64,000 bases of DNA from an uncultured Metabacillus sp. (GTDB lineage: Bacteria > Bacillota > Bacilli > Bacillales > Bacillaceae), in NCBI RefSeq assembly GCF_947503125.1, contig NZ_CANNCR010000007.1, positions 1 through 64,000 on the forward strand. Direction: 5' to 3'. Positions 62,411-62,790 of this stretch are shown here, in pieces (position 1 is the first letter of the stretch; each line of letters begins with the position of its first letter). The notes under the pieces are model-generated. The model saw nothing but the letters and a program-made list of their open reading frames with translations, was not told where the DNA came from and made no database searches. Both the position numbers and the translations under genes were made by a program.

Positions 62411-62487
62411 TGGCGTCCCAGGAGAGATTCGAACTCCCGACCGACGGCTTAGAAGGCCGTTGCTCTATCCAGCTGAGCTACTGGGAC
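62411..62487 (-). tRNA. tRNA-Arg (anticodon UCU), CCA encoded
   Basis: Complete cloverleaf on the minus strand: acceptor GTCCCAG/CTGGGAC, D-stem GCTC/GAGC, anticodon stem ACGGC/GCCGT with loop CTTCTAA (anticodon TCT), T-stem GGGAG/CTCTC with TTCGAAT, discriminator G and encoded CCA. It reads AGA and AGG codons. Its 5' 27 nt are repeated twice more upstream, at 150-bp intervals. Transcription probably starts at the promoter at 62839-62867, over 300 bp upstream of the tRNA 5' end. Confidence 0.98.
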
Positions 62488-62790
62488 TTAATTTATAAAA
62501 AATATAAGGTTTTAAATACTAAATTTGTCGTCGTCCCGATTTCAGAAAGATGATTCAAGATGCTGCTCAATCGGTACGCTGATGCCATTTCAAGGTAGCG
62601 TATTCGTTCGTGCTCTATCCAGCTGAGCTACTGGGACTTAATTTATAAAAAATATAAGGTTTTAAATACTAAATTTGTCGTCGTCCCGATTTCGGAAAGA
62701 TGATTCAAGATGCTGCTCAATCGGTACGCTGATGCCATTTCAAGGCAGCGTATTCGTTCGTGCTCTATCCAGCTGAGCTACTGGGACTTA
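62461..62790 (-). repeat. tandem 150-bp direct repeats containing the 5' part of tRNA-Arg
   Basis: The 30-bp block at 62461-62490 (27 nt of the tRNA 5' end plus TTA in front of it) recurs identically at 62611-62640 and 62761-62790. The period is exactly 150 bp. The two full units, 62461-62610 and 62611-62760, differ at only two positions (near 62544/62694 and near 62596/62746). On the minus strand each partial tRNA ends at the junction of D-arm and anticodon arm and continues into about 120 nt of unrelated sequence with two hairpin-forming segments. Confidence 0.97.

Follow-up and report, generated by a model that had tools for sequence, protein, structure and literature searches.

A structured RNA core inside truncated tRNA 5′ copies upstream of tRNA genes in Metabacillus and other Bacillales

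Two tandem units before a tRNA-Arg gene

The stretch of DNA analyzed here (the window) comprises 64,000 nucleotides of an uncultured Metabacillus sp. (assembly GCF_947503125.1, contig NZ_CANNCR010000007.1, positions 1 to 64,000). Toward its end lies an intact tRNA-Arg(UCU) gene preceded on the same strand by two tandem units (Table 1). An identical 30-mer, read in the window on the minus strand, occurs at 62461-62490 and again at each of the two tRNA 5′ copies of Table 1, and TRF reports the span 62461-62795 as a repeat with period 150, 2.2 copies, 98% matches, and a score of 649. A sequence-only reading of this DNA had described three tandem 5′ ends of tRNA-Arg at a spacing of 150 bp. The positions are exact, but the intact tRNA-Arg(TCT) itself supplies the 30-mer at 62461 as its 5′ end, so that there are two extra heads and not three. 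Each unit consists of the 5′ 27 nt of tRNA-Arg(UCU) (the head) and a filler of about 120 nt, which contains a core of about 79 nt, and both units are upstream of the intact tRNA. The two 150-bp units differ at two bases, as that reading had it. It was also right that the filler is not tRNA: in the window and in the gene cluster of contig C61 (see below), ARAGORN and Rfam call intact tRNAs only, and the units have neither a cloverleaf nor a tRNA 3′ half. The copy number of two at this locus is that of a draft assembly in 244 contigs.

Table 1. Features of the tRNA-Arg(UCU) locus, in window coordinates.
Feature	Position	Strand	Basis
Intrinsic terminator-like hairpin and T-run after the tRNA	62369..62390	-	sequence
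Intact tRNA-Arg(UCU), downstream partner	62411..62487	-	ARAGORN; Rfam RF00005, 69 bits
Spacer from proximal core to intact tRNA, 44 nt; starts with AC, as tRNA bases 27-28	62488..62531	-	read in sequence; dinucleotide rule
Proximal core, 79 nt; covarying helix, A.G mismatch, tandem G.A/A.G	62532..62610	-	covariance model R1
Proximal tRNA-Arg 5′ copy (27 nt) and 3 upstream bases	62611..62640	-	sequence, TRF
Spacer following distal core	62638..62681	-	read in sequence
Distal core, 79 nt	62682..62760	-	covariance model R1
Distal tRNA-Arg 5′ copy (27 nt) and 3 upstream bases	62761..62790	-	sequence, TRF
Sigma-A-like promoter TTGACT-17-TATAAT	62839..62867	-	11/12 matches

Along the minus strand, the order is promoter-like site, head, core, spacer, head, core, spacer, intact tRNA, and terminator-like hairpin. 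Covariance model R1 matches the proximal core at 62532-62615 with 96.9 bits (GAGCA included) and the distal core at 62682-62765 with 94.1 bits, both cores being members of the 64-sequence alignment from which the model was built. The region has 4 promoter-like sites, compared with 2.1 in shuffled sequences, and by eye a similar promoter-like sequence precedes the element-free tRNA in relatives. The tRNA-Arg gene is monocistronic, and both units lie downstream of its promoter-like sequence and upstream of its terminator-like hairpin; judging from this arrangement, they should be transcribed as part of the pre-tRNA leader. Elsewhere in the window, Rfam identifies two T-box leaders on the minus strand, at 32807-33034 and 61549-61801.

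tRNA partners and distribution of the family

When the window's own genome is searched with the repeat region, the filler turns up again on contig C61, an rRNA-tRNA cluster, in copies fused to the heads of Thr, Lys, fMet, and Phe tRNAs, each directly before its intact tRNA. (Here and throughout, the initiator tRNA is identified by its sequence features.) An additional tRNA-Lys copy is on contig C6, and the element is missing before the tRNA-Arg of contig C93 and the tRNA-Lys of contig C101.

A first profile search, which covered the window, the C61 cluster, and an initial set of loci of relatives, collected 93 copies; a wider set of loci gives 234 copies by core profile. By downstream tRNA, these are Lys (56), Phe (47), Met (39), Thr(UGU) (31), Arg(UCU) (21), Arg(CCG) (10), Asn (7), and Thr(CGU) (1), together with three before Met-like genes that ARAGORN leaves unnamed, so that the partners include elongator Met, Arg(CCG), and Asn besides Lys, Phe, fMet, Thr, and Arg(UCU). 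None of the 234 precedes a tRNA-Val or a tRNA-Pro. An ARAGORN tRNA is found within 400 nt downstream of 215 of the 234 copies; of the remaining 19, 10 have another unit next to them, 6 reach the end of the fetched DNA, and 3 precede an intron-split tRNA-Arg, and no copy is an orphan. That the same fusion is found in many genomes and with seven or more types of tRNA excludes chance. The two tandem units of the window belong to a family in which a structured core sits inside a truncated 5′ copy of the tRNA that follows directly on the same strand.

The 234 copies count some genomes twice (for instance L110/L047, L178/L091, and L220/L069). Deduplication by sequence leaves 187 cores for the analysis of the helix, 163 units for head fidelity, and 158 units for pairing and dinucleotides, after setting aside short or N-containing matches, units far from a tRNA, and tRNAs without GAGCA. 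One pattern scan contributed at least 119 contig stretches, many of them unrelated and mostly proteobacterial or actinobacterial, from which only core-profile matches were used.

Two observations concern the tRNAs themselves. At L238 (987-1278), an apparent group I intron interrupts the anticodon loop of the tRNA-Arg(UCU) that follows the element (Rfam Intron_gpI, 30.2 bits, E = 9e-6, under the gathering score of 50), and the tRNA-Arg(UCU) genes of L077 and L106 are split in a similar way. In genome G007, three fMet genes behind elements (L053, L057, and L060) are reported by ARAGORN as tRNA-???, with altered anticodon arms; they may be sequencing errors or pseudogenes.

Per place, we find a single unit in 164 cases, two in 15, three in 6, and six in 1, where places are counted per fetched locus, some genomes appear twice, and some arrays are cut by contig ends. 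The check proposed by the sequence-only reading, whether the filler is joined to other tRNAs or varies in copy number, is therefore positive on both counts (several tRNA types, arrays of 1 to 6 units).

By covariance model, 18 of 21 Metabacillus genomes bear the core, with 1-17 copies each, as do 102 of 299 genomes (about a third) in an order-wide sample, distributed over 51 of 117 genera; the model matches nothing in the other 3 of the genus or in the other 197 of the order. In a class-wide sample of 299 genomes, there are 9 with a match, all from the same order and one of them the window's own genome. The copy numbers are lower bounds, because the order and class surveys scored 15 candidates per genome (14 in one further scan) and because model R1 under-represents a second core type described below. 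Among the bearers are Neobacillus, Peribacillus deserti, Cytobacillus firmus, Anoxybacillus tengchongensis, Gottfriedia acidiceleris, and Melghiribacillus thermohalophilus. Searching phage and plasmid collections by blastn with the Arg core and spacer returns no match. Nine pattern matches in viral contigs were rejected as cores, the best scoring 17.3 bits under the model versus 75-101 bits for nearly all matches in the genus.

The core, its conservation, and its junctions

The core folds into 3 base pairs, an A.G mismatch, 6 base pairs, and a tandem G.A/A.G that closes a conserved loop of about 25 nt. The nine-pair helix is paired in 98.6% of 574 cells and shows two-sided changes in 7 of its 9 pairs; its covariation score is 0.614, compared with 0.225 in shuffles (which ignore relatedness) and at most 0.171 when slid. 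In the 187 distinct cores, the helix cells comprise 1615 Watson-Crick pairs, 41 G-U, 4 A-C, and 21 other mismatches. That G-U outnumber A-C by 41 to 4 indicates that the tRNA strand is the folded strand. The A.G mismatch is retained in 181 of the 187 cores; for the two G.A pairs, the counts are 179 and 181. The core would thus be a structured RNA, its helix supported by covariation.

When units of the same tRNA are compared across species of the genus, the core is more conserved than the spacer in 491 of 502 pairs, which overlap and are not independent; the spacers are still above shuffled sequence (0.56-0.70 vs. 0.45-0.50). G-U states connect the two-sided helix changes in Lys and Phe cores of the genus, and single broken helix pairs occur in some of its Lys, Phe, and fMet copies. 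Only 5 of the 110 model matches in the genus fall below 75 bits, so decayed copies are few in the genus. At the Arg locus, G002, G007, and G016 have core and spacer about equally conserved (0.89-0.95 and 0.85-1.00), and one helix pair of the G007 core is an A-C mismatch; between the window genome and G011, the core is at 0.91 and the spacer at 0.68. Taken together, the rate difference and the covariation are the main evidence for what would be selection on the resident copies. A conserved and covarying core is not what simple array decay with no conservation of the filler would leave behind, and it gives no support to the failed duplication that the sequence-only reading had listed as an origin.

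A second core type, in which GAGCA is followed by ACGAGCAA and the helix reads GUUGUAC..., occurs at Lys in L257, in L117, and at elongator Met in L176, where three such cores stand in a row (1620-2080). Composite units with two helix domains per unit precede tRNA-Arg(CCG) in L184 (1797-2310), and the spacing of matches suggests another before tRNA-Arg(CCG) in L249.

The core nearly always follows directly after GAGCA within the copy of the neighboring tRNA's 5′ part. For Arg, Lys, Thr, Phe, and Asn, we place this break at A26|N27, assuming standard numbering, which agrees with the junction between D-arm and anticodon arm proposed from the sequence alone. For fMet that placement fails: GAGCA lies in the 5′ strand of the D-stem, and the core follows there. 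The junction is thus set by the sequence GAGCA and not by the boundary between the two arms. Exceptions to GAGCA exist, such as GAG-ACGA in the Thr copy of the window's own genome. The median period from junction to junction is 147 in fMet and 149 in the others, with spacers of 54 and 44 and with GAGCA 12 nt earlier in fMet.

How faithful are the heads? Among the 163 distinct units, 126 have a head that matches the neighboring tRNA exactly. For 133 non-fMet units, the match is 0.99 beside the junction, 0.96-0.99 in the D-loop, and 0.91-0.96 over the acceptor strand, and upstream of the tRNA start it drops from 0.77 to about 0.3. In fMet units, the first ten upstream bases still match the neighboring leader (0.67-0.97), and this upstream match is 0.82 to the own leader versus 0.64 to the leaders of other genomes. 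Some heads that come first in an array are decayed and have lost the acceptor strand.

The similarity to the tRNA resumes after the core, for essentially two bases. In non-fMet units, tRNA base 27 is found there in 94% and base 28 in 96% (36% and 41% for non-cognate tRNAs); base 29 agrees in 49% versus 26%, and from base 30 on we observe background. In fMet units, the three bases directly 3′ of the core match the tRNA at 93, 87, and 77%. The dinucleotide follows the tRNA also where a tRNA type varies: for Phe, the pairs (after core/tRNA) are AT/AT in 16, AA/AA in 14, and GA/GA in 2 of 34, and Asn agrees in 5 of 5; three Arg genes whose bases 27-28 are TA depart from this. Within tRNA types, the head is identical to that of its own tRNA in 98 of 129 units (mean 31 and maximum 44 over 1000 permutations) and the dinucleotide in 120 of 129 (permuted mean 98.3, maximum 108). 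A small number of Asn and Phe copies continue for 11-13 tRNA bases past the core, which makes the core look inserted into a tRNA copy; among the unit tails listed, none is a simple insertion that retains the tRNA 3′ half.

Local re-copying around the junction and a required pairing with tRNA bases 42-43 are candidate reasons for the two retained bases. We rejected pairing of these bases with head, core, or spacer, since for the first base no position exceeds 68% of the 158 copies, and the best candidates for the second (86%) are near-invariant columns. A defined duplication length (about 52 nt to the left of the junction), suggested by four or five young-looking single units, was likewise set aside because spacer lengths are too variable.

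Two features of the spacers and leaders deserve mention in their own right. At Lys loci (L056, L078, L090, and others), a possible leader hairpin CTCATT...AATGAG includes the first three bases of tRNA-Lys and precedes the copied head as well as the intact tRNA-Lys. In L014 (about 2383-2515), the spacer before the Phe unit ends in cggaagccg, similar to the end before Phe units in several genomes of the genus, and such spacers may be another conserved spacer RNA.

Leader RNA or selfish element

As to gain and loss, the tRNA-Arg locus could be assessed in 12 relatives, after leaving out the 8 of 20 fetched loci without the tRNA-Arg search string. In 8 of the 12, the site is empty, with promoter-like sequence running straight to the tRNA, and in 4 it is filled. 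These sites look like an insertion polymorphism, and loss through recombination fits them equally well. In six genomes, a unit is found at 18 of 35 tRNA-Lys genes, one of them degenerate at 44.9 bits (positions were matched by eye, and the total of 35 is that of one exact pattern).

As to movement, cores in the genus group by tRNA type, with an identity of 0.824 for the same tRNA versus 0.721 for the same genome. Outside the genus, there is a weak reversal (0.771 in 79 pairs from the same genome at different tRNAs vs. 0.723 in 414 pairs at the same tRNA in different genomes), and the Asn and Phe cores of G036 have the same helix sequence. Among 165 cores, none is near-identical to a core at a different tRNA of the same genome, the best pair reaching 0.869. 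Nothing here resembles a recent jump, and the near-identical copies that would mark an active transposable element are absent from this set. We also considered two possible enzymatic partners. A reverse transcriptase (RT, PF00078) is present in 52 of 102 bearers and 102 of 197 non-bearers (p = 0.90), no association, and was rejected. A Y1 transposase (PF01797) is present in 88 of 102 bearers versus 129 of 197 non-bearers (p = 1e-4, phylogeny ignored); it is missing from 14 bearers, 6 of which lack the RT as well, and was rejected as confounded.

Rfam 15, run on the window and on the C61 cluster and also at relaxed E-value, has no family over the core, with scores far below gathering; the best non-tRNA match on the element strand over the units has 19.3 bits against a cut-off of 191. 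The elements have no Rfam match to an intron family, and a 3′ exon is absent. Integrative elements use tRNA genes as attachment sites; like our units, they are bordered by a tRNA fragment and, at the opposite end, by a complete tRNA, and they have a precise empty site. On the other hand, here it is the 5′ part that is duplicated, the insert is geneless and about 79 nt long, and the head is that of the local tRNA. An integrase, for whose gene a unit of about 147-150 nt is too small, might act in trans. Eukaryotic SINEs can have a tRNA 5′ region as their head, constant within a family. They resemble our units in joining a conserved body to a tRNA 5′ region and differ in that here the head matches the adjacent tRNA and the copies are not dispersed. 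T-boxes precede protein genes. T-box leaders (RF00230) are, like the units, structured leader RNAs linked to tRNA; the units have no T-box match in Rfam and are sited before tRNA genes. Bacillaceae-1 RNA (RF01690) occurs in a context of rRNA and tRNA; unlike it, the elements have no Rfam match even at relaxed E-value. It is a structured RNA of Bacillaceae (PMC2864571). The tRNAOther of Bacillus cereus, by the accessible part of its description, is a predicted pseudo-tRNA that flanks an island, and also a tRNA-like RNA, unused in translation, in a Bacillus relative; that part mentions no fusion of a tRNA head to a core, so the two are set apart by description and not by sequence (PMC3399842). 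Full-text searches of the open-access literature listed no description of the element; a subscription paper could exist. A folded RNA motif inside truncated tRNA heads is apparently undescribed.

What, then, are the units? The reading we favor, at somewhat short of an even chance, is a selected structured RNA in pre-tRNA leaders that probably acts in cis on that tRNA copy. It would explain why the helix covaries with the A.G and G.A pairs kept, why the core is above the spacer in conservation in the genus with few decayed copies, why genus cores cluster by tRNA type with no recent cross-tRNA copy, and why 215 of 234 copies precede a tRNA, with promoter-like and terminator-like flanks. The core, as part of the pre-tRNA leader, may influence the maturation of the adjoining tRNA copy. 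The carried head might do so by competing with the real 5′ half for the tRNA's 3′ half, the weakest step of the proposal, and recombination between heads could add or delete units and keep heads like the neighboring tRNA.

Several results go against a leader RNA. The element is dispensable and patchy, with empty sites and only 18 of 35 tRNA-Lys genes occupied; the target rule is the sequence GAGCA and not amino-acid identity; core and spacer at the Arg locus are about equally conserved among G002, G007, and G016; broken helix pairs occur, both the A-C of G007 and single pairs in some Lys, Phe, and fMet copies; and the folded strand could be single-stranded DNA. Head fidelity peaks at the junction and is somewhat reduced in the acceptor strand. 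That the head and bases 27-28 follow the tRNA would be explained if the copied head competed with the genuine 5′ half, but a more faithful D-loop and a less faithful acceptor strand fit recombination better than strand competition. Thermodynamic evidence for the competition was discarded: in several of ten MFE folds of a unit together with its tRNA, the copied acceptor strand pairs with the tRNA 3′ end, but the near-identical heads make these near-ties of little weight.

A close rival, quite possible if on the doubtful side, is a selfish element, small and non-autonomous, with the GAGCA of tRNA genes as its target. Its insertion would be coupled to duplication of the tRNA 5′ part, so that the tRNA survives downstream; the folded strand would be needed for copying or re-insertion, and local re-copying would keep the flanks identical to the target. 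Such an element accounts better than a leader RNA for the target rule, defined by sequence at seven or more tRNA types, for the precise empty sites, and for the patchy distribution. The tRNA sequence that tracks the local tRNA on both sides of the core, the nearly constant period (147 vs. 149) despite the earlier GAGCA in fMet, and, outside the genus, the greater likeness of same-genome cores across tRNAs, with the shared helix of G036, also speak for it. It accounts less well for resident cores that evolve more slowly than spacers and for the lack of any orphan among 234. Moreover, the 165 cores show no recent cross-tRNA copy (best 0.869), the tails listed include no simple insertion with a tRNA 3′ half, the RT is unassociated and the Y1 transposase missing from 14 bearers, and the Arg core has no blastn match in phages or plasmids. 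Neither the selfish element nor the leader RNA explains why essentially two bases are retained after the core.

It is improbable that recombination alone maintains the units, as remnants of an old one-off insertion that unequal crossing-over between tRNA 5′ repeats has amplified and homogenized and that today neither functions nor moves. Arrays of 2, 3, and 6 units, heads that track their neighbor including the D-loop, and first-in-array heads that can decay would all be expected, but compensatory helix changes, conservation of core over spacer, and the repeated occurrence at the GAGCA of several tRNAs across many genera would be left unexplained. Finally, a decaying failed tandem duplication or an assembly artifact, conceivable for a 244-contig draft, is very unlikely, and it is refuted as a general account by the same architecture at many other loci and in assemblies of one to three contigs (G002, G003, G007, G009, and G016, with a two-unit Lys array in G003).

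Between the scar of an element and a selected RNA, both raised by the sequence-only reading, the evidence is mixed and leans to the selected RNA. A bolder reading, somewhat less likely than not, is that of a hitherto unrecognized class of RNA element confined to positions before the tRNA genes of this order, after GAGCA in a truncated tRNA 5′ copy, with copy and next two bases kept like the live tRNA, that would either control maturation by strand competition or re-copy itself by tRNA-guided RNA/DNA homing. To our knowledge, how bacteria regulate single copies of their tRNA genes is little understood. An RNA domain tied to tRNA heads, as carried by about a third of the order's sampled genomes, would be a new control of tRNA supply or a selfish-RNA niche in essential genes, and the two-base rule together with the tracking of the local tRNA makes both models testable.
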